From Actinomycetes bacterium (GTDB taxonomy: Bacteria > Actinomycetota > Thermoleophilia > Gaiellales > Gaiellaceae), in NCBI GenBank assembly GCA_025964535.1, contig JAOPYX010000228.1, positions 1 to 32,082 of the forward strand: a stretch of DNA of 32,082 nt. Direction: 5' to 3'. The notes under the pieces are model-generated. The model ran no database searches and had not been told where the DNA came from. It saw nothing but the letters and a program-made list of their open reading frames with translations. Of the stretch, positions 408 to 18,252 are shown one piece after another (position 1 is the first letter of the stretch; the number at the start of each line of letters is the position of its first letter). Position numbers and translations under genes: made by a program.

Positions 408-1867
408 GCGCCACCGCGGAGGCGACCGCCGCCGTCGCGGGCGTCGAGGTCCCGACCGACCACTACATCAACGGTGAGCGCGTCGGCAGCACCCGCACCT
501 TCACCACCATCTCGCCGATCGACGAGTCGGTCCTGGCCGAGGTCGCGCGGGCAGGGGAGGCGGAGGTCGACCGCGCTGTGCGCGCCGCCCACGACGCCTT
601 CCCGGACTGGACGGCCCTGGGGGCGGCGGGCCGCGCCGAGCACCTGCACCGCCTCGCCGACCTGATCGACGCGAACGTCGAGCGCCTGGCGGCGGTGGAG
701 TGCGCCGACACGGCGATGCTCCTGCGCTCGCTGCGCGCGCGGGTCATCGCCCGAGGCGCGCTCAACTACCGCAACTACGCCGACCTAGCCGTCGCCTACG
801 AGGAGCGCGACTGGCACTCCAAGGGCACGTGGAACCGCGTGCAGCGGCTGCCCGCCGGTCCGGCCGCCGTGATCACGCCGTGGAACGCGCCGTTCATGTT
901 GTCGACGTGGAAGACCGCGCCGGCGCTGGCCGCGGGCTGCACGGTGGTGCTCAAGCCGGCCGAGTGGTCGCCGCTGAGCTGCTCGCTGCTGGCGTCGCTG
1001 GCCGACGAGGCGGGCATCCCGCCGGGCGTCTTGAACGTCGTGCAGGGCATCGGCGAGGAGGCCGGCGCCACGCTCGTCGCCCACCCGCTCATTCGCCGCG
1101 TGTCGTTCACCGGCTCGACGGAGACCGCCCGCTTCATCGGCGCGGCCGCGGCGCGCAACGTCGTGCCGTTCACCGCCGAGCTCGGCGGCAAGAACCCGTT
1201 CATCGTCTTCGCTGACGCCGACCTCGACGCGGCGGCCGCGAAGGCGGCCGGCCAGTACGACGACGCCGGTCAGGTCTGCCTGTCGGGCACACGGCTGCTG
1301 ATCGAGGAGCCGGTGCTCGAGGAGTTCCTGACGAAGTTCCACGCGGCGACCGACGCCCACGTGCTCGGCGATCCATGCGACGACGCGACGACCGTGTCGC
1401 CGTTGATCCACGCCGACCACCTCGCACGGGTCGAGGGCTTCGTGGAGCGCGCCCGCGCGGCCGGCCAGCGCGTCGTCCGCGGCGGGAGGCGGGCCGGTGG
1501 CCTCTTCTACGAGCCGACGCTGATCGAGCCCACCGGCAACGACGCCGAGATCGTGCAGAACGAGGTCTTCGGCCCGGTGCTGACCTACCAGACGTTCCGT
1601 ACCGAGGAGCAGGCCGTCGCGCTGGCCAACTCCACCAAGTACGGGCTCTCGGCCATCATCTACACGTCGTCGATGGGCCGGGCCGATCGCGTGGGCCGCG
1701 CGGTCCGCAGCGGCGTCGCGTGGGTCAACACGTTCCTCGTGCGCGACCTCACGGCGCCGTTCGGCGGCGTCGGCCAGAGCGGCATCGGGCGCGAAGGCGG
1801 CGACTACGCGCTCGACTTCTACTCCGACCTCAAGACGCTGCAGATCCTGGACGGCTCGGTGCGATGA
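404..1867 (+). CDS. NAD(P)-dependent aldehyde dehydrogenase (semialdehyde dehydrogenase type)
   Basis: 487 residues, normal for the ALDH superfamily. Visible active-site elements are the PWNAPF block with N161, the cofactor-binding LKPAEWSP block with K184, the FTGSTE nucleotide motif near 236-240, the general base in ELGGK (E259), the catalytic cysteine in GQVC (C292), and the late EVFGPV and PFGGVGQSGIGREGG motifs. The overall pattern most resembles 2-hydroxymuconic or 5-carboxymethyl-2-hydroxymuconate semialdehyde dehydrogenases, but substrate cannot be fixed from motifs. It oxidises an aldehyde to a carboxylate in the cytoplasm. It starts in the ATGA shared with the ADC-like gene and ends in the ATGA shared with the M20 gene, so the three form a tightly coupled unit in which an aldehyde from an upstream step is probably oxidised. 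Confidence 0.93.
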   Translation: MSATAEATAAVAGVEVPTDHYINGERVGSTRTFTTISPIDESVLAEVARAGEAEVDRAVRAAHDAFPDWTALGAAGRAEHLHRLADLIDANVERLAAVECADTAMLLRSLRARVIARGALNYRNYADLAVAYEERDWHSKGTWNRVQRLPAGPAAVITPWNAPFMLSTWKTAPALAAGCTVVLKPAEWSPLSCSLLASLADEAGIPPGVLNVVQGIGEEAGATLVAHPLIRRVSFTGSTETARFIGAAAARNVVPFTAELGGKNPFIVFADADLDAAAAKAAGQYDDAGQVCLSGTRLLIEEPVLEEFLTKFHAATDAHVLGDPCDDATTVSPLIHADHLARVEGFVERARAAGQRVVRGGRRAGGLFYEPTLIEPTGNDAEIVQNEVFGPVLTYQTFRTEEQAVALANSTKYGLSAIIYTSSMGRADRVGRAVRSGVAWVNTFLVRDLTAPFGGVGQSGIGREGGDYALDFYSDLKTLQILDGSVR

Positions 1868-3189
1868 GCCACGGGTGGGTCGACGACGCGGTCGCGGCGC
1901 AGGCGCCGTGGATGGACCAGCTGCTCGCCGAGCTCGTCGAGGCGCCGACGCTGCTCGGGCGCGAGGAGCCGGGGCAGGCGATCATGGCCCGCGCGTTCGC
2001 AGACTGCGGCCTCGAGCCCGCCGACGTCCCGATGGACGCGGGCGCGATCCGCGCCGACCCGCACCACTCGCCGTTCTCGTGGAGCGTCGCGGGCAAGCGC
2101 AACGTCGTGGCGACGTGGGCAGCCGACCCCGCAGGCCCGCCCGGGCGCTCGCTGATCCTCAACGGCCACGTCGACGTCGTCCCGCCGTCGTCCGTGGCGC
2201 TGTGGACCGCGCCCCCGTTCACCGCTCGCCGTGAGGGCGACTGGCTCTACGGTCGCGGCGGCGGCGACATGAAGGCCGGACTCGTCGCGATGACCGGGAC
2301 GGTGCGCGCGCTTCGGGCACAAGGCGTGCGACTGCGCGGCGACGTGCACCTGCAGTCGGTCGTCGAGGAGGAGTGCACGGGCAACGGCACGCTGCAGTGC
2401 CTGCTCGCCGGCGCCCACGCCGACGCCGCGATCCTCACCGAGCCTCACCACGACCACTTCACGGTCGCGCAAGTCGGGGTCCTGTGGTTCCACGTCGACG
2501 TGCGCGGCGTCCCGGCCCACGCGGCGCGCGCGTCGTCGCTCCGCCACAGCGCGCTCGACGCCGCCCAGCGCGTCCTCGCGGAGCTGAGCGAGCTAGAGGC
2601 CGAGCTGAACGCCGAACGTGGCGAGCACGAGTACTACAAGAACGTCGATCACCCGATCAACCTGAACCCCGGGATCGTCGCGGGCGGCGACTGGACCTCG
2701 ACCGTCCCCGCCGAGTGCACGCTCTCCTGCCGCCTGGCCCTCTACCCCGGCCAGGCCCCGGCGGACCTTCGCCGCCGCGTCGAGGCCGCCGTGGCCCGCG
2801 CAGCCGCCGCCGACCCGTTCCTCGCCGAGCATCCGCCGTCCGTCCGCTACGACGGCTTCAGCTGCGAGGGCTCGATCGTCGCCGAGGACGAGCCGGTCAT
2901 TGTCGCCCTCGCCGACGCCTACGCCGCGGTGCACGGGATGCCGCCGGCGCTCCGCGCGACCACGGCCACCACGGATGCGCGCCACTTCGTGCGCCACGGC
3001 ATCCCGGCCATCTGCTTCGGACCAGAGGCCGAGGCCATCCACGGCATCGACGAGCGGGTGTCGCTGCCATCGATGCGCGAGGTCGCGCGCGTGCTCGCGC
3101 GCTTCATCCTGTCGTGGTGCGGGGAGTCAAACGACGGGCCGCCGGCGACAGCGGCCCACAGAGGAGAGAGCAGTCATGTCCAGCGCTAA
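1864..3189 (+). CDS. M20 family metallopeptidase / deacylase (ArgE-DapE type)
   Basis: 441 residues. The ATG at 1864 was chosen because it overlaps the ALDH stop (ATGA); the frame is open further upstream but that part is antisense-like noise inside ALDH. Di-zinc M20 ligands are all visible: H102 in NGHVDVVP, D135 in GRGGGDMKAG, the EEE of VVEEECTGNG near 168-170, E193 in LTEPHH and H393 in AIHGIDE. The lid/dimerisation domain lies roughly between residues 200 and 320. Family members cleave N-acyl, N-carbamoyl or peptide bonds of amino-acid-like substrates, for example N-acetylornithine or succinyl-diaminopimelate. Placement after an ALDH and ADC-like gene argues for a catabolic rather than arginine/lysine biosynthetic role. 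The last 25 residues are low-complexity and not conserved-looking. Confidence 0.9.
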   Translation: MSHGWVDDAVAAQAPWMDQLLAELVEAPTLLGREEPGQAIMARAFADCGLEPADVPMDAGAIRADPHHSPFSWSVAGKRNVVATWAADPAGPPGRSLILNGHVDVVPPSSVALWTAPPFTARREGDWLYGRGGGDMKAGLVAMTGTVRALRAQGVRLRGDVHLQSVVEEECTGNGTLQCLLAGAHADAAILTEPHHDHFTVAQVGVLWFHVDVRGVPAHAARASSLRHSALDAAQRVLAELSELEAELNAERGEHEYYKNVDHPINLNPGIVAGGDWTSTVPAECTLSCRLALYPGQAPADLRRRVEAAVARAAAADPFLAEHPPSVRYDGFSCEGSIVAEDEPVIVALADAYAAVHGMPPALRATTATTDARHFVRHGIPAICFGPEAEAIHGIDERVSLPSMREVARVLARFILSWCGESNDGPPATAAHRGESSHVQR

Positions 3190-5611: not shown

Positions 5612-6613
5612 TCACGCCGCTGCGTGCTCGTCGATGAGCGCGCCGGGGAAGTGGCACGCCGCGACGTGGCGTGGCTCATGCTCCTCCAACGGGGGGCGCG
5701 TGGTGGCGCAGAGCTTGCGATGGCGCCCGACCGGACAGCGAGGCTGGAGTGGGCAGCCCGTCAGCGGTGAGGGCATGTCGGCGTCATCGCGCACGATGGT
5801 GCGACGCTGTCGCGAGCGGCGGCTCGGGTCTGGAACTGGAGCTGCCTCGAAAAGTCCGACGGTGTACGGATGCAGAGGTCGCGAGAACAGCTGCTCACGC
5901 GACGCCGACTCGACTTGATGGCCGAGGTACAGCACGGCGACGCGGTCGCAGAAGTACTCCGCGACGGCGAGGTCATGGCCGATGAACACGTACGTCAATC
6001 CCAGCTCCCGCTGGAGGTCGCGGAGGAGGTTGAGCACCTGCGCCTGAACCGAGACGTCGAGCGCCGAGATGGGCTCGTCGAGGACGACCACTTCGGGTCG
6101 CAGCACCAGGGCGCGGGCGATGCCGACTCGCTGACGCTGCCCTCCGCTGAACTCGTGAGGGCGTCGGTCCATCATCTCGTTCGTGAGCCCGACGAGCTCC
6201 AGCGTCTCCCGGCCGCGCCGTCGGCGCTCATTGCGATCGCCTACGCCGTGGATCTCGAGCGGTTCGGCCAGGAGCTCGCCCACGTTCATCCTGGGATCGA
6301 GCGCGCCGCTGGCGTCCTGGAAGACGAACTGCAGCCGCCGGCGAAGGCGCCGCATGCGCTTGGCGTCCAGCGCACGCAAGTCGATGCCATCGAACGTGAT
6401 CCTCCCGGCCGTGGGCTCGATCAGGCGCAGCACGCAACGAGCGAGGGTCGACTTGCCAGAGCCTGACTCTCCGACGAGCCCGAAGGTCTCGCCGCGCCGG
6501 ACCTCGAAGCTGACGTCATCCAAGGCACGCACGACCTCGGCCCGTCGGCCGAAGGACGCGTTCGTGTGGAACTCCTTGGTCAGGTGCTCGACCGAGAGCA
6601 GGGCCCCGCTCAT
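5612..6613 (-). CDS. ABC importer ATPase, OppF/DppF type
   Basis: 333 residues from the ATG at 6613, which shares ATGA with the stop of the upstream ATPase; an open extension further upstream lacks family similarity. Walker A is GESGSGKST (48-56), the Q-loop is in VFQDASGALDP, the signature is FSGGQRQRVGIARAL, Walker B is VVVLDEP and the switch histidine is in FIGHDLAV. The C-terminal oligopeptide-transporter extension is present with four cysteines (GCPLQPRC, KLC, AACHFP), a pattern that binds an iron-sulfur cluster in some actinobacterial Opp ATPases. It pairs with the adjacent OppD-type ATPase to power uptake at the inner face of the membrane. Substrate class is peptide/nickel/other small solute, not further resolved. 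Confidence 0.95.
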   Translation of the reverse strand: MSGALLSVEHLTKEFHTNASFGRRAEVVRALDDVSFEVRRGETFGLVGESGSGKSTLARCVLRLIEPTAGRITFDGIDLRALDAKRMRRLRRRLQFVFQDASGALDPRMNVGELLAEPLEIHGVGDRNERRRRGRETLELVGLTNEMMDRRPHEFSGGQRQRVGIARALVLRPEVVVLDEPISALDVSVQAQVLNLLRDLQRELGLTYVFIGHDLAVAEYFCDRVAVLYLGHQVESASREQLFSRPLHPYTVGLFEAAPVPDPSRRSRQRRTIVRDDADMPSPLTGCPLQPRCPVGRHRKLCATTRPPLEEHEPRHVAACHFPGALIDEHAAA

Positions 6614-9783: not shown

Positions 9784-11439
9784 GTGAGAACATCAGCGAC
9801 CAGGCTCCAGGGCGACGTGCCACGCCCGCGGCGCCGACGGGCGGCAGCCTACCGTCACGTGGTAGGGCTGCTCCTGGGCAGCACTTCGGTCGTGTTCGCC
9901 GCCGGCTGCGGCGACGCCAAGACGAGCGCCACGGCAGGGAAGAGCGCCATGATCATCAACATGGTGCGAACGCCGCATTCGTTGGATCCGGCGAACCAGT
10001 GCGATGCCGCGGACCCGCTCGCCGGCAACCTCTACAGCCGACTCGTGCAGTTCGGGACCAAGCCAGGTCCGGACGGGACGCTCCAGAGCGATCAGACCAA
10101 GCTCGAGCCCGATCTGGCCCGCTCATGGGACGTCAGCCACGATGGCCGAACGTACACCTTCCACCTCCGCTCCGGCGCCAAGTTCGGCAGCGGCCGTCCT
10201 GTTGACGCCGAGGCCGTCGTCTACAACTTCGATCGCGTTCAGAAGATGGGAGTCTGCAGTGCCTTCGCGGTCAGCACAGCCGACAACGGCAATGTGCGAT
10301 CCGTGCGCGCTCTGGACCCGACGACCGTGCAGATCAAGCTTCGGCGGCCGAATTCGTCGTTGATCCGCTCGTGGGCTACGCCGTCCTTGGGGATCGTCGA
10401 CCCCAGCGTCGTGGAGGCACACGGCGGAGTGGTCGCCGGCAAGCCGAACGAGTACCTCGCGACGCACGACGCGGGTTCGGGGCCCTTCATCATCAAGCGC
10501 TACCAGCCGAACCAGAGCCTCGTGCTCGTGTCCAACCCCACGTACTACGGTCCGAAGCCGAAGACCACGCAGTTGACCGTCAACTTCGTGTCGGCGGACT
10601 CGACGCTGCAGCTGCAGGCCTCCAACGGGACGGCCGACGTGACGATCGGCCTGTCCAAGCAGGGCTACAACTCCCTGCGATCCAACTCCAAGGTGCGACG
10701 CGTCGCATACACGGCGCGGACGACCGAGCAGGTCGTGCTGAACTGGGACAAGGCGCCGTTCGACCAGGTGCTCGTGCGCCGCGCCGTGGCGACCGCCGTG
10801 CCGTACGACGCGCTGATCAGCAAGGTCACGTTTGGCCTCGGCAAGGCGTTCTACGGCCCGATCCTGCCGGGGATGCCGTTCTACAACGCGCCTTTGAGCC
10901 AGCCGCTGGCCACCGACATCGCCAAGGCGAAGGACCTCATCCAGCAGTCGGGGGTCAAGACGCCGATCCCGGTCACGCTGGTCATCGATCAAGGCAATCA
11001 GGTCCACGAGCAGCTCGCGACCCTCCTCCAGGACACCTGGAACCAGATCGGCTTGAAGGTCTCGATCCGCAAGCTCGATCAGGCGGCCTACACGGACACG
11101 CTGTTCGGGAACAAGGCCCAGGCCACGCTCCGTACCGATTTCCCATTCGTAGACGATCCTGACTATTACCTCGGCTATGACCTCCAGTGCCAGAAGGGCG
11201 CCGAGAACACCGGCCACATCTGCGTGCCGTCGATCGATCGTGCGCTCCTCCGCGCGCGGCGCGCGCTGTCGGACGGCGACAAGCAGCACGCCTACGACGA
11301 GGTGACTCGCCTCTGGCGCGACAACGCCCCGAAGGTGTTCCTGTACCTGGAGCAGGACACGGTCGTGCTGTCGCGTCGCGTCGGCAGCTTCACGTTCGAC
11401 CCGACGCTGAGCAGCTTCGCCCAGCTCGGAGCCAAGTGA
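9784..11439 (+). CDS. Solute-binding lipoprotein, peptide/nickel ABC family (SBP family 5), importer 1
   Basis: 551 residues from a GTG at 9784, chosen for the GAGGAG Shine-Dalgarno at 9770-9775 with 8 bases of spacing. An arginine-rich n-region and a hydrophobic stretch lead to the lipobox FAAGC with lipidated C42, so the mature protein is anchored on the outer face of the cytoplasmic membrane. The family 5 fold is visible from MVRTPHSLDP, through the LEPDLARSWDVSHDGRTYTF block (residues ~103-122), to the end. It is divergent from the permease/ATPase operon that lacks its own binding protein, so the two halves form one importer. Its stop overlaps the hyuA start (GTGA), tying substrate capture to the hydantoinase-like enzyme. 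Confidence 0.93.
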   Translation: MRTSATRLQGDVPRPRRRRAAAYRHVVGLLLGSTSVVFAAGCGDAKTSATAGKSAMIINMVRTPHSLDPANQCDAADPLAGNLYSRLVQFGTKPGPDGTLQSDQTKLEPDLARSWDVSHDGRTYTFHLRSGAKFGSGRPVDAEAVVYNFDRVQKMGVCSAFAVSTADNGNVRSVRALDPTTVQIKLRRPNSSLIRSWATPSLGIVDPSVVEAHGGVVAGKPNEYLATHDAGSGPFIIKRYQPNQSLVLVSNPTYYGPKPKTTQLTVNFVSADSTLQLQASNGTADVTIGLSKQGYNSLRSNSKVRRVAYTARTTEQVVLNWDKAPFDQVLVRRAVATAVPYDALISKVTFGLGKAFYGPILPGMPFYNAPLSQPLATDIAKAKDLIQQSGVKTPIPVTLVIDQGNQVHEQLATLLQDTWNQIGLKVSIRKLDQAAYTDTLFGNKAQATLRTDFPFVDDPDYYLGYDLQCQKGAENTGHICVPSIDRALLRARRALSDGDKQHAYDEVTRLWRDNAPKVFLYLEQDTVVLSRRVGSFTFDPTLSSFAQLGAK

Positions 11440-13511
11440 CGGCGCCTGCGTCGCGAAACGCCGGGTTCCGCGTCGGCCTGGACATCGGCGGGACGTTCAC
11501 CGACTTCGCGCTGCTCGACGAGCGCACGGGCCGGCTGAGCCTGCACAAGCGGCTGACCACGCCCGAGGACCCGTCTCGGGGAGCGCTGGGAGGGTTGCAG
11601 GAGCTGCTCGATCGGGAGGGTCGCGACCTGGCCGACGGCCTCGCCGTCGTCCACGCGACCACGTTGGTGACGAACGCGGTGATCGAACGACGGGGCGCGC
11701 GCACGGGCATGCTCGTCACGCGTGGGTTCCGTGACGTCCTCGAGCTGGCGCGCGAGCAGCGGTACGACATCTACGACCTCTTCCTGGAGTTCCCGCCGCC
11801 GCTCGTCCCGCGTCCCCTTCGGCGAGAGGTCGACGAGCGGATGAGTCGTGACGGAACGCCGCTCCAGGACCTGGATGTCGAGCAGCTCCTCGAGCAAGCC
11901 GAGTACCTGGTGCGGGATGGCGTCGAGGCCATCGCGGTCTGCTTCCTGCACGCGTATCGCAACCCCGACCACGAGCAGCGAGCCGCCGCCGCTCTGCGAG
12001 ACGCCTACCCGAACGTGCACGTGTGCACGTCGGCGGAGGTCGTGCCCGAGGTCGGGGAGTACGAGCGCATGAGCACCGCCGTGTGCAACGCGTACGTGCT
12101 GCCGGTCGTCGACCGGTATCTGACGCGGCTGGAGGAGGGGCTCAAGCGCCGTGGGTTCGACGGGCAGTTCCACCTCATGCACTCTGGAGGCGGACTGCTC
12201 AGCGCGACGACCGCGCGTCGCCTGCCGATCCGCCTGCTGGAGTCGGGGCCGACGGCAGGGGCGATCATGGCGGCACACGTCGGACGCATCGTCGGGGCGC
12301 CGACGCTGGTGGCCTTCGATATGGGAGGCACGACGGCGAAGATGTGCGTCATCGCGGCCGATGGTCTGACGCGTGCCCCGGAGCTGGAAGTGGCTCGCCT
12401 CGACCGCTTCAAGCGGGGATCGGGGCTCCCGATCAAGACGCAGGTCGTCGACCTCATCGAGATAGGCGCCGGCGGAGGCTCGATCGCCCAGGCGGACAGT
12501 CTCGGACTGCTCGCCGTCGGCCCGCGCAGCGCCGGCGCGTCCCCTGGGCCTGCGTGCTACGGGTTCGGGGGCACGGACGCGACGGTGACGGATGCGTGCG
12601 TCGCGCTCGGCTACGTCGACGCGGAGCGCTTCGCCGGCGGCTCGATGCCGCTCGACGCCGGCGCCGCGCTCGAGGCGATCGACCGGCTCGGCGCCACGCT
12701 CAAGATGCAGGCGAACGTCGCCGTCGGTATCCACCGGGTGGCCTGCGAGCGGATGGCCAGCGCGGCGCGCGCCCACGTCATCGAGAGCGGCCTGGATCCG
12801 CGCGCTCAGCCGCTGGTCGCCTTCGGCGGCGCCGGCCCGTTGCACGCCGTGGCAGTAGCCCGCCTTCTCGGGGCGAGCGAGGTCATCGTCCCGCCGATGT
12901 GCGGCGTGGGATCGGCCATCGGCCTGCTCGCCGCGGGCGTGAGCTTCGACTACGCCCGCTCAGCTCCTGCCTCCCTCGCCGACGTGGACTGGGACGAGGT
13001 CACCCGCAACTTCGACGAGATGGAGCACGACGCGACGGTCAACATCATCGCCGATCGACCGTTGCGGTTCGAGCGGAGCTTGGAACTGCGCCTCACCGGC
13101 CAGTCGCACGACCTGGAGGTGCCTGTTCCAGCCGGCGCTCTCAGCGTCGAGGCCGCCGACTCCGTCCAGGCGGCGTTCAGGGCCGAGTACCGGCGTCGGT
13201 ACGAGACCGAGCCGCCGGCCGCGCCACCGCTGGCGATGACGTGGCGCCTGCGTGCATCCGCCCCGGAGCCGGACCTCCGCATCGTGCCGGTGGTGGGCGA
13301 CGTCGCGCCGGCTCGCAGCCGTGCAGCCTGGTTCGAGGCGACGGGCTACGTGGAGTCGGCGGTCGTCCAGCGAGCCCAACTCCGCGCCGGCGACACGGTC
13401 GCCGGCCCCGCGCTCGTCGAGGAATCGGAGACGACGACTGTCGTCGGACCGAGCGACCGCTGCGTCGTGGATGCACATCTCAACCTGCGAATCGAAGTAG
13501 GCCAGCAATGA
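11436..13511 (+). CDS. hyuA: Hydantoinase/oxoprolinase family protein, subunit A
   Basis: 691 residues from the GTG at 11436, which overlaps the binding-protein stop as GTGA. The N-terminal Hydant_A_N region starts with GLDIGGTFTD (14-23), an actin-like ATPase phosphate loop. The second nucleotide motif FDMGGTTAK lies at about 294-302, and the family motif FGGAGPLHA at about 463-471. Length matches HyuA and AcxB-type subunits. Family members use ATP to open cyclic amides such as 5-oxoproline, hydantoin or N-methylhydantoin, or to carboxylate ketones such as acetone and acetophenone; the two chemistries cannot be told apart here. No third small subunit typical of acetone carboxylase is present, which favours ring-opening hydrolysis. 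It is co-translated with hyuB (ATGA). Confidence 0.93.
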   Translation: MTAPASRNAGFRVGLDIGGTFTDFALLDERTGRLSLHKRLTTPEDPSRGALGGLQELLDREGRDLADGLAVVHATTLVTNAVIERRGARTGMLVTRGFRDVLELAREQRYDIYDLFLEFPPPLVPRPLRREVDERMSRDGTPLQDLDVEQLLEQAEYLVRDGVEAIAVCFLHAYRNPDHEQRAAAALRDAYPNVHVCTSAEVVPEVGEYERMSTAVCNAYVLPVVDRYLTRLEEGLKRRGFDGQFHLMHSGGGLLSATTARRLPIRLLESGPTAGAIMAAHVGRIVGAPTLVAFDMGGTTAKMCVIAADGLTRAPELEVARLDRFKRGSGLPIKTQVVDLIEIGAGGGSIAQADSLGLLAVGPRSAGASPGPACYGFGGTDATVTDACVALGYVDAERFAGGSMPLDAGAALEAIDRLGATLKMQANVAVGIHRVACERMASAARAHVIESGLDPRAQPLVAFGGAGPLHAVAVARLLGASEVIVPPMCGVGSAIGLLAAGVSFDYARSAPASLADVDWDEVTRNFDEMEHDATVNIIADRPLRFERSLELRLTGQSHDLEVPVPAGALSVEAADSVQAAFRAEYRRRYETEPPAAPPLAMTWRLRASAPEPDLRIVPVVGDVAPARSRAAWFEATGYVESAVVQRAQLRAGDTVAGPALVEESETTTVVGPSDRCVVDAHLNLRIEVGQQ

Positions 13512-15226
13512 ACGACATCGATCCGGTCACGCTGAAGATCATCTGGAGCCGTCTCGTGAACGTCGCCGAGGAGAGCTGGCTGACGATCTCGCGCACGGCG
13601 TTCAGCCTCATCATCAGCGAGTCCTACGACTTCGGGTGCGAGCTGCTGGACGCGGATGGCGAGTCGCTCGCCCACTCTCCGCGCTCGATGCCGGTCTTCA
13701 ACATCACCTTGTCGGTCGTCGCGCGACGCATGCTGGAGGTGCATCCGCCCTCGACGCTGCGCGACGGCGACGTGTTGATTACCAACGACCCGTGGCTGTG
13801 CGCGGGGCACCTCTTCGACTTGGCGGTGGTGACGCCGGTCTTCCGCAACGGTCGCCTGGTGGCGTTCTCGGCCTCGGTCGCGCACTGCACGGACATCGGC
13901 GGCATCCGCGACTCGCTCGCAGCGAGAGAGATCTATGACGAGGGGTTCCAGATCCCACCGATGAAGCTGCACCGCGCCGGAGTGCCGAACGAGGACCTCC
14001 TCACGCTCTTGGCGGCCAACGTACGCGTGAGCAACTTCGTGCTCGGCGACGTCCAGGCGCAGGTCACCGCGAACCAGGTCGGTGCGCAGCGGCTGCTCGA
14101 GATCATGGACACCTACGGGCTCGACGATCTCGTCGAGGTCGGGCGTGAGATCCAGGGTCGCTCCGAACGCGTGATGCGCGACGCCATCGAGGCGCTGCCT
14201 GACGGCACCTATCGATACGACGTGAGCTGCGATGGCGCCGGCGAGCCGCTGGTGCTTCCCGTGGCGGTGACGGTGGCCGGCAGCACCATCCACGTCGACT
14301 GGGACGGTGCGCCACCGCAGGTCGAGCGAGGCGGCGTCAACTGCACGCTCAGCTACATCACTGCGGATTGCATGTACATCTTGAAGTGCCTGCTGACGCC
14401 CGAGACGCCATCGAACGCCGGCTGCTTCCGCCCGTTCAGCGTCGATGCCCCCGCTGGAAGCGTCCTGAACTGTGACTACCCCGCAGCGGTCAACATGAGG
14501 ACGATGGTCGGCTGGTACGTGGCCCCCGCTCTGATGGGTGCGCTCGCTCAAGCTGATCCCGAGCGCGTCCAGGCCTTCACCGCCTTCCCGATGTGGGTGC
14601 TCGCCTATGGCCAGGATCCTCAGAGCGGCACGTTCAGCGATCACTTCGCGTGCGCGGGTGGCCAGGGCGCGGGCGCCAGTGCCGACGGCATGAACGCGAT
14701 CCTGTTCCCGACGAGCGCCGCGAACACGGCTGTCGAGCTCTTCGAGGCCCGGACGCCGCTCGTCGTCGACTACAAGGAGCTGCGCACCGACAGCGGCGGC
14801 CGGGGACGACATCGCGGCGGGCTTGGCACGCGCTTTGCCCTGCGCGTCCTCGAGGACCACGACCGCCCGGTGCTCGTCGGCTTCACACCCAACGGAGCGC
14901 TGGTCGATCCTCCGGCCGGGCCTGAGTGCGGAGGCCGCGGGCCGCGGGTGTCCATCTCGCTGCACGACGGCGACGAGGTCGTCGCCGACTGGGCGCTGAA
15001 CGGGCTTGCCGAGTTGTGCAGCACGCGGCAGCGCCTGGTCTTCGAGCTCGGCGGCGGGAGCGGCCATGGCCCCGCCGACGCGCGTCCGCTGGACGCCATC
15101 GAAGCCGACCTGGCCAATGAATACATCAGTGTCGACGGCCTGTCGGCCTACGGATGCTCGATGGAGGAGGGCCGTGTCGTGCGGAGCTCGGTGAGGATTA
15201 GCAGCGCTGAAGGTCAGACCCAGTAG
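13508..15226 (+). CDS. hyuB: Hydantoinase/oxoprolinase family protein, subunit B
   Basis: 572 residues starting in the ATGA shared with hyuA; the much longer open frame upstream only shadows hyuA. The N-terminus DPVTLKIIW is typical of HyuB. The conserved NDPWLCAGHLFD segment (93-104) and AHCTDIGG (125-132) correspond to the metal-binding and active-site blocks of the family, usually NDPY.GG.H..D and AHH.D.GG. C-terminal segments with FGGAG-like AGGQGAGASADG and RGRHRGGLGT are also family features. It forms the catalytic partner of HyuA in a cytoplasmic ATP-dependent amidohydrolase or carboxylase complex. The tryptophan and leucine-cysteine inside the NDP motif, and the cysteine following the active-site histidine, differ from the commonest consensus and may reflect substrate choice. 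Confidence 0.93.
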   Translation: MNDIDPVTLKIIWSRLVNVAEESWLTISRTAFSLIISESYDFGCELLDADGESLAHSPRSMPVFNITLSVVARRMLEVHPPSTLRDGDVLITNDPWLCAGHLFDLAVVTPVFRNGRLVAFSASVAHCTDIGGIRDSLAAREIYDEGFQIPPMKLHRAGVPNEDLLTLLAANVRVSNFVLGDVQAQVTANQVGAQRLLEIMDTYGLDDLVEVGREIQGRSERVMRDAIEALPDGTYRYDVSCDGAGEPLVLPVAVTVAGSTIHVDWDGAPPQVERGGVNCTLSYITADCMYILKCLLTPETPSNAGCFRPFSVDAPAGSVLNCDYPAAVNMRTMVGWYVAPALMGALAQADPERVQAFTAFPMWVLAYGQDPQSGTFSDHFACAGGQGAGASADGMNAILFPTSAANTAVELFEARTPLVVDYKELRTDSGGRGRHRGGLGTRFALRVLEDHDRPVLVGFTPNGALVDPPAGPECGGRGPRVSISLHDGDEVVADWALNGLAELCSTRQRLVFELGGGSGHGPADARPLDAIEADLANEYISVDGLSAYGCSMEEGRVVRSSVRISSAEGQTQ

Positions 15227-16225: not shown

Positions 16226-17392
16226 TCAGATCGCGTCGCCGACGCCCAGCAGGCGGCGCGGCAGGGAGCCAAGCCGCTCGTAGCCACCGTCGGTGACCAC
16301 GATCGCGTCCTCGATCTGGAGGCCGGCCGTGCCGAGGAGGTACAGCGGCGTCTCCACGCAGCACGTCATGCCCGCCTCGACCGGCCGGTCCGAACCCGGA
16401 GCGATCAGCGGCGGCTCGTAGAGCTCGAGGCCGATGCCGTGGCCGCAGTGGCTGCGTTCGTAGTCATGCACACCTCCAGCGCGCACCGCTGCGACGGCCC
16501 GGTCAAAGAGGTCCGCGCCAGTCGCGCCGGGCCGCATCGCCTGAAGCGCCGCCTCCTCCCCGGCAACGAGTGCGTCGTGCGTCTCTTGCAGCCACGCCGG
16601 CGCGTCACCGATGACGGCGGTCCGGGCTAGGTCGGCCTGGTAGCCGTCCAGGACGCAGCCGACGTCGAAGCGCACGACATCGCCGAGCGTGAGCCGGCGT
16701 TCGGTTGGCGCCATGTCGACGAGCGCGCCGCGCTCGCCTATGCCGATGGAGCTCAGGACCGGTCGCGCGCCTTGCTCCGCCATGCCTTGGCGTGTCCAAC
16801 GCAGCAGGTCCAGTTCGGTGCTGCCCACGTCTGCGCGCTCGAGCGCGTGAACGATGCCTGCTTCGGCCGCCGCGTTCACCCGTCGAAGGGCCTCGATCTC
16901 GTCGTCGTCCTTGACGGCCCTCGCGTCTCGCCACAGGCCGGCGTCGACCACCACGGTCCTCGGCGCGAGCGCCTCGCAGAGGTCTCGAATGACGGAAGGG
17001 CGACCCCCGTCGTCGAGGATGACGTGCCCGCTCGCGCCTACGGCGTCGAGCGCCGTTCGGATCGCGTCGGGAAGCGACCGCTGTGCGCCGGCCGCGGTTC
17101 TGATCGGCTCCGGCACGGCTCCGCAGAAGGTGAAGAAGCCGTGCGCGATGACATCGTCGACCGGATGCTTCTCGGCGATCCACGCCAACTCGCTGACCGG
17201 TGCGACGACGCTGGTGGCGCCGGAGGGCCCGATCGCCACCCACACGGTCCCCATTCCGTAGAGCTGGTGCGGCTCTCCGGCGAGGCCAGTCAGCCACCGG
17301 ACGTTCGGCGCGTCGCAGGCCAGCGCGGAAGCTGAATCGGGAAGGCGCCCGATGATCCGTGCGATGCGGTGGTCGTAGGTGTGAGAAATCAG
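16226..17392 (-). CDS. M24 family metallopeptidase (Xaa-Pro aminopeptidase/creatinase fold) with a non-canonical start
   Basis: Creatinase-N plus M24 fold, 388 residues if started at CTG 17392. All five M24 metal ligands are present: D243 (FDVG), D254 (ADLART), H318 (GHGIG), E347 (VETPL) and E361 (QIEDA), so a metal-dependent peptidase/amidase is more likely than metal-free creatinase. The first ATG (17254) would begin after the family's conserved YDHRIARI and NVRWLTGL segments, which are encoded in frame upstream. Between the in-frame TAG at 17399-17401 and that ATG there is no ATG, GTG or TTG. An AGGAG at 17396-17400 (minus strand) lies 3 bases before a CTG and 6 bases before an ATT. The CTG overlaps the SDR stop as CTGA, mimicking other junctions here. 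Substrate is unknown. Confidence 0.85.
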   Translation of the reverse strand: MISHTYDHRIARIIGRLPDSASALACDAPNVRWLTGLAGEPHQLYGMGTVWVAIGPSGATSVVAPVSELAWIAEKHPVDDVIAHGFFTFCGAVPEPIRTAAGAQRSLPDAIRTALDAVGASGHVILDDGGRPSVIRDLCEALAPRTVVVDAGLWRDARAVKDDDEIEALRRVNAAAEAGIVHALERADVGSTELDLLRWTRQGMAEQGARPVLSSIGIGERGALVDMAPTERRLTLGDVVRFDVGCVLDGYQADLARTAVIGDAPAWLQETHDALVAGEEAALQAMRPGATGADLFDRAVAAVRAGGVHDYERSHCGHGIGLELYEPPLIAPGSDRPVEAGMTCCVETPLYLLGTAGLQIEDAIVVTDGGYERLGSLPRRLLGVGDAI

Positions 17393-18252
17393 TTGCTCCT
17401 AGGGCGCTCGATGCCCGGGAACTTGTCCAATCCGAAGATGTCGACCTCCGCTGAGCGCTGCTGGGCGAGCATCCCGCCGTCGACCGGCAGCACGACACCC
17501 GTGATGTAGTCGGCGTCGGACGAGGCCAGGAACGCGTAGGCAGCCACGAGGTCCGCGGGCACGCCGAGCCGCGCGAGGGGGATCGACGCTCCGCGCTTGA
17601 CACGTTCCGCATCGCTGCCCGAACCCGCGGGCGCGACGTCGATCGCCCCCGGCGAGACAGCGTTGACCCGGATGCCGTAGGGCGCGAGATCAAGCGCTAA
17701 CGCGCGGGTCAGGGCCTCGACGCCGCCCTTGGCCGCGTCATAGGCGGCGTTGCCGCGATGCGCGCGGGTCGCGCCGCCGGACGATGATCCGACGATCGCA
17801 CCGCCGCGGCGGCGAGCCATGATGCGCGCGGCGCGGTCCGCGCACAAATACATGCTCTTGAGGTTCGCCGTCAGGACGTGATCCCACCACTCCTCGTCGC
17901 CGTCGAGGAAGTGCCGCGACACATCAGTGGCGGCCGCGTTGTTGATGAGCACGTCGACATCACCCAGCTCGTCGCTGGTGACGGCGAACAGCCGATCGAC
18001 CTCCTCCGCGACGGCGACGTCGGCGGGCACCGCGATGGCGGTGCCGCCAGTGCCGTTGATGCCGTCCGCGACGAACGCCGCGCGCGCGCCGTCGATGTCG
18101 TTGACGACGACCCGCGCGCCCTCACCGGCGAACCGGGCCGCAACGGCGCGGCCGATGCCGCCGCCGGCGCCGGTGACGACGACGACGCGACCATCGAACC
18201 GCCTGGGGCCGCTCGGCATGGCAGGTGCGACGTCAGGCGTGTGCTCGGGCAT
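17389..18252 (-). CDS. Short-chain dehydrogenase/reductase (SDR) 1
   Basis: 287 residues. Classical SDR features: the nucleotide-binding TGAGGGIG (27-34), an acidic residue after the second strand (NDIDG), NNAA at 104-107, and a catalytic S158/Y171/K175 set in GSSSGG and YDAAKGG. The C-terminal YITGVVLPVDGG is the usual SDR closing motif. An additional ATG 11 codons in (MPSGPRR) is an alternative start. Family members interconvert alcohols and carbonyls with NAD(P). It is the first gene of the leftward unit reading from 18252 and is coupled to the M24 gene, whose Shine-Dalgarno lies within the last codons of this gene. Its promoter must lie in 18253-18462. Confidence 0.92.
   Translation of the reverse strand: MPEHTPDVAPAMPSGPRRFDGRVVVVTGAGGGIGRAVAARFAGEGARVVVNDIDGARAAFVADGINGTGGTAIAVPADVAVAEEVDRLFAVTSDELGDVDVLINNAAATDVSRHFLDGDEEWWDHVLTANLKSMYLCADRAARIMARRRGGAIVGSSSGGATRAHRGNAAYDAAKGGVEALTRALALDLAPYGIRVNAVSPGAIDVAPAGSGSDAERVKRGASIPLARLGVPADLVAAYAFLASSDADYITGVVLPVDGGMLAQQRSAEVDIFGLDKFPGIERPRSN

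Follow-up and report, generated by a model that had tools for sequence, protein, structure and literature searches.

The window, a stretch of 32,082 nucleotides, carries on its minus strand two co-directional genes, an SDR oxidoreductase gene and, downstream of it, a gene for an M24 metallopeptidase. The M24 reading frame has no canonical start codon at its natural beginning. The features of this junction are as follows.

17389..18252, minus strand: upstream SDR oxidoreductase gene (PF13561, E 6.6e-59), whose TGA stop at 17389-17391 overlaps the M24 start
17399..17401, minus strand: in-frame TAG, the upstream bound of the M24 frame, from the sequence and the ORF translation
17396..17400, minus strand: AGGAG, a Shine–Dalgarno-like motif within the SDR gene, of a kind with a chance rate of 6.8%
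17390..17392, minus strand: CTG, the favoured start, which forms CTGA with the upstream stop (overlap counts; genus-fixed CTG of an RpoD-family gene)
17387..17389, minus strand: ATT, the rival start codon, giving a TGATT junction 6 nt past AGGAG (spacing; mycobacterial reporter data, PMC4633059)
16226..17392, minus strand: M24 metallopeptidase gene from its inferred CTG start, 388 codons plus stop (PF00557, E 3.7e-40; conserved metal ligands; open frame to the TAG)
17255..17392, minus strand: N-terminal segment of 46 codons, missed by gene calling with ATG, GTG and TTG (log-odds +6.6; aligned motif)
17252..17254, minus strand: first canonical in-frame start, ATG, from the ORF listing; its product of 342 aa would lack the N-terminal segment

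Other genes in the window encode hydantoinase A/B, a solute-binding protein, a LysR regulator, an FAD oxidoreductase and a PLP decarboxylase, a neighbourhood that points to amide or amine breakdown. On the plus strand, at 9859-15226, the gene for the solute-binding protein is followed by those for hydantoinase A and B, joined by GTGA and ATGA overlaps. These genes adjoin the LysR regulator and the SDR–M24 pair. By its gene content, the region with its SDR–M24 neighbours is probably an amide/oxoproline breakdown cluster.

The two reading frames overlap out of register. In the M24 frame, the minus strand reads TAG GAG CAA CTG ATT TCT CAC ACC TAC GAC CAC CGC; across the same junction, the SDR frame reads CGC CCT AGG AGC AAC TGA TTT. 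The TAG closes the M24 frame three codons upstream of the N-terminal segment. Re-reading and translation confirm the original prediction that no ATG, GTG or TTG occurs on the minus strand between this stop codon and the ATG at 17252-17254, and the longest ORF with one of these starts begins in this frame at 17254. The motif AGGAG was likewise correctly placed, with gaps of 3 nt to CTG and 6 nt to ATT, as was the geometry of the junction, in which CTG and the SDR stop form CTGA and a start at ATT would form TGATT. These two codons are the sole fits to a natural M24 start.

The 46 codons that conventional gene calling skips have the character of coding sequence. Codon usage was modelled on 340 long ORFs from this genome. 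By that model they score a log-odds of +6.6, and the remaining five frames range from -22 to -0.4. In an alignment with four full-length M24 proteins, residues R9, L24, N30, V31, R32, L34 and G36 of the segment are invariant, and the motif N-V-R-x-L-x-G is invariant across the aligned M24 N-termini. A Thermoleophilia homologue (L036) has its Met start only a few residues from the first M24 codon in the alignment. Coding signal and homology with M24 N-termini together uphold the earlier claim that conserved family features lie upstream of 17254. The predicted structure of the N-terminal part of the protein is of low confidence and is left out of the argument. Translation from the internal ATG at 17254, with the upstream 46 codons untranslated, is what standard gene callers would choose, this being the first canonical start. 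The upstream coding signal and conserved motif argue against such a start; moreover, no Shine–Dalgarno match precedes 17254, and truncation there would remove the beginning of the N-terminal domain. We regard it as improbable.

The remainder of the protein is well preserved. The PF00557 catalytic domain is matched at 138.3 bits (cut-off 23, E 3.7e-40), and the columns of the metal ligands, D243, D254, H318, E347 and E361, are invariant, so that all five M24 ligands (D, D, H, E, E) are present. Because these catalytic ligands are intact, the gene itself looks intact rather than dead. The protein gives no match to the creatinase/prolidase N-terminal domain of Pfam at E <= 1e-3, though the NVRxLTG motif aligns, and it reaches no NCBIfam equivalog cut-off.

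The frequency of missing canonical starts can be gauged from an 862 kb sample of the genome. Gene prediction there gave 889 genes, and 802 of these have a closed 5' end. Among the latter, only 27 have no canonical start near the coding boundary, a rarity that puts the M24 case beyond mere chance. Many of these 27 are frameshift-like or spurious; in several the coding signal carries on in another frame, and some are weak calls. Within the sampled regions, the coding signal switches frame in L146 (9798-10901, minus strand), L100 (4983-5894, plus strand), L143 (314-2074, plus strand) and L145 (1-830, minus strand), which suggests that the draft contains broken genes or frameshift errors. Three of the 27 stand out as conserved proteins with a noncanonical natural start: the M24 protein, a LutA/LldE-like protein (L095:1267) and an RpoD-family sigma factor (L106:5692). 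The only candidate for their natural start is CTG or, in the M24 gene, CTG or ATT.

Several lines of evidence bear on the choice between these two codons. Stop/start overlaps in the 862 kb comprise 93 cases of ATGA, 84 of GTGA and 27 of a stop codon joined to ATG. Overlaps of the form NTGA, which have the same geometry as the CTG junction, thus make up about 87% of the stop/start overlaps. The window itself holds six NTGA junctions and one TGATG; the GTGA at 11436, for example, has GGAG 4 nt upstream. The likeness of CTGA to these other junctions, to which the original prediction had drawn attention, is real. The same prediction named CTG and ATT, on the SDR stop, as candidate starts, which is still the best reading; a choice of ATT by spacing alone would not be decisive. 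Shine–Dalgarno-like matches of at least 5 nt lie within 18 nt upstream of 6.8% of phase-matched positions inside genes, and at that chance rate AGGAG argues only modestly for a ribosome-binding site. Spacing was rejected as a means of deciding between CTG and ATT, being too weak for this purpose: such matches are common and their spacing varies.

A start at ATT (17389-17387), which would be a rare start of the infC kind at good Shine–Dalgarno spacing, nevertheless has arguments in its favour. The motif AGGAG lies 6 nt upstream, and the aligned gap is 5 for ATT against 2 for CTG. A gap as short as that of CTG occurs in only 1 of 45 ATGA or GTGA junctions with a match of at least 5 nt, which counts against CTG. 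Start-codon selection in mycobacteria, at a Shine–Dalgarno-led position, gave 9.8% of reads for ATT and 0.03% for CTG (PMC4633059); with a Shine–Dalgarno sequence, ATT initiates well there and CTG does not. Mycobacteria belong to the same phylum, and the inactivity of their CTG counts against a CTG start. In Escherichia coli, CUG gives less stable initiation complexes than any other NTG codon, whether AUG, GUG or UUG (PMC11497404). Other observations weigh against ATT. Overlaps of a stop codon with ATG are about seven times rarer than NTGA in the sample, and the only other case of a stop codon joined to ATT is an unconvincing start. The genus yielded no ATT start, and its infC has TTG. Codons for Ile (ATT or ATC) are frequent in second position after NTGA starts in this genome, so that ATT is expected as codon 2. 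On balance, the M24 gene probably starts at the CTG lying on the stop codon of the preceding gene, a reading we hold to be roughly twice as likely as ATT; the ATT start is a less likely but serious rival.

The natural near-cognate start of E. coli infC is ATT. The infC genes of the window's genus start with TTG, as do most of those in the order (regions L151-L168), and the analogy therefore has no local counterpart. infC was accordingly unusable as an internal ATT control. The suggestion in the original prediction that such a start can throttle translation or make it depend on IF3 finds no support here, and would be speculative for M24. In most genomes of the order, the TTG is conserved as TTG AGG CC, with ATG or GTG in a few, and TTG may be the conserved rare start for IF3 autoregulation in this order.

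The two other conserved genes extend the comparison beyond the window.

L106 (G000:C56) 5692-5903, plus strand: RpoD-family sigma-factor gene, with homologues L173-L189 and L197-L226
L095 (G000:C45) 1267-1971, plus strand: LutA/LldE-like gene with a CTG start, from the same genome as the window (orthologue comparison)

Within the window's genus, the sigma-factor gene has a CTG start in each of the 14 genomes that yielded it, the start being scored as the codon before a T/S-Q-N-x-L motif. Outside the genus, 20 RpoD-family loci from ten genera of the family were scored at the aligned codon, and 19 carry TTG and one GTG; two further loci, missed by the motif, also have TTG. In the genus, in-frame stop codons lie 1-25 codons upstream, and the next canonical start is a TTG at codon +5 or +8. 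One representative, G007 (L186), has no ATG, GTG or TTG in the 50 codons that follow. Codon 1 is invariantly CTG, whereas the internal Leu codon 6 is CTT, CTG, CTC or TTG, and a motif of the GAAAGGA type upstream of the gene is relatively conserved. The simplest reading is a CTG start fixed across the genus, since the 14 genomes are independent assemblies. At the position where the LutA/LldE-like gene has CTG, an orthologue of 61% identity (G070, L170) carries GTG and another of 45% identity (L171) carries ATG. The LutA/LldE-like gene itself has no Shine–Dalgarno motif; the sequence TAGACT lies 10 nt upstream.

With CTG fixed in the sigma-factor gene, CTG starts in this genus are probably real rather than products of sequencing error. 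A broader proposal, that CTG is a routine start codon in the genus, fixed by evolution (in the sigma factor and in single genes such as LutA and M24), which would imply initiation more permissive of CUG, is tentative and less likely than not. An altered initiator tRNA was considered and rejected: of 16 genomes of the genus, 13 have an intact anticodon stem-loop, GGG-CTCATAA-CCC, identical to that of sister genera. It is absent from three incomplete drafts.

A different origin of the anomaly would be a true ATG or GTG codon, the C arising by assembly or sequencing error or by a recent strain-level mutation in one population. The source is a draft MAG, 76.6% complete and in 360 contigs, in which a search found no 16S sequence, and several sampled genes contain frameshift-like breaks; a single base change would restore an ordinary ATGA or GTGA junction of the kind found elsewhere in the window. 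Against this, a single-base error precisely at a start codon is improbable a priori, the composition of the contig is consistent with its genome, and the sigma-factor CTG is kept in 14 independent assemblies, so that errors are not a general explanation. Error or mutation at this one codon seems a minority possibility, of perhaps one chance in five. Contamination of the contig was considered and rejected, as its composition fits that of the genome.

No M24 orthologue of more than 41% identity was found in roughly 540 genomes plus GTDB contigs. The sets searched overlap, and comprise 101 relatives, 396 genomes of the phylum, 103 of the family, 129 of the order and 36 of another order, with the GTDB contigs. 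With no such orthologue, orthologue comparison shows neither conservation of the M24 codon nor an error in it. The M24 gene (16226-17392, minus strand) is absent from other genomes of the genus, its best match having about 40% identity, and was possibly acquired horizontally.

We propose that M24 is the second gene of an SDR–M24 pair and is translated from a near-cognate codon on the SDR stop, CTG being favoured; taken as a whole, this has about an even chance of being correct. (i) A 30S subunit or ribosome terminating at the SDR UGA would restart on the overlapping codon. (ii) The restart would use ordinary initiator tRNA, perhaps with the help of AGGAG. (iii) The product from CTG 17392-17390 would begin fMet-Ile-Ser-His-Thr-Tyr-Asp-His-Arg. 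(iv) Synthesis of M24 would be coupled to that of SDR, and (v) its output would probably be weaker than from ATG. Initiation at the CTG or ATT codon, coupling and reduced efficiency are what we infer from the observed sequence features. Both bacteria and archaea use termination–reinitiation at overlapping gene pairs (Huber et al. 2019, PMC6728339), as established for ATGA and TGATG pairs rather than for CTGA. The position of a Shine–Dalgarno-like motif directly before the SDR stop could also be taken to indicate an SDR–M24 fusion produced by programmed -1 frameshifting. The junction has no X-XXY-YYZ slippery heptamer, AAC would have to slip onto CAA at GAGCAACTGA, and a plain start-codon explanation is enough; frameshifting is highly improbable.

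Gene calling limited to ATG, GTG and TTG leads to such genes being annotated short, M24 by 46 residues. Taken alone, the M24 gene is a modest fresh case of the known near-cognate starts. More surprising is the sigma-factor CTG, which is fixed throughout the genus. Its contrast with the TTG or GTG of all sister genera examined provides a clean natural test of the use of the weakest NTG start, and of whether selection holds the translation of a gene low. If true, regular use of CTG in the genus would stand in contrast to mycobacteria, where CTG is reported to be nearly inactive.

The M24 gene and its start can be set beside four known systems. The protein resembles MEROPS family M24 (Xaa-Pro peptidase/creatinase-like) in its PF00557 domain, five metal ligands and N-terminal NVRxLTG motif, but the best homologues of the window gene are only about 40% identical. 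As with E. coli infC-type near-cognate starts, a conserved protein N-terminus lacks a canonical start codon in frame; the infC of this order, unlike that type, mostly starts with TTG, and M24 gives no sign of IF3 autoregulation. The SDR–M24 junction shares with ATGA and TGATG pairs (PMC6728339) co-directional genes and a start overlapping the upstream TGA, by 4 nt as CTGA or by 1 nt as TGATT. It differs from them in that the start is CTG or ATT rather than ATG, GTG or TTG. The leadered ATT and TTG starts of mycobacteria (PMC4633059) likewise represent Shine–Dalgarno-led near-cognate initiation in Actinomycetota; CTG is inactive there, whereas it is fixed at the RpoD-family start in the window's genus.
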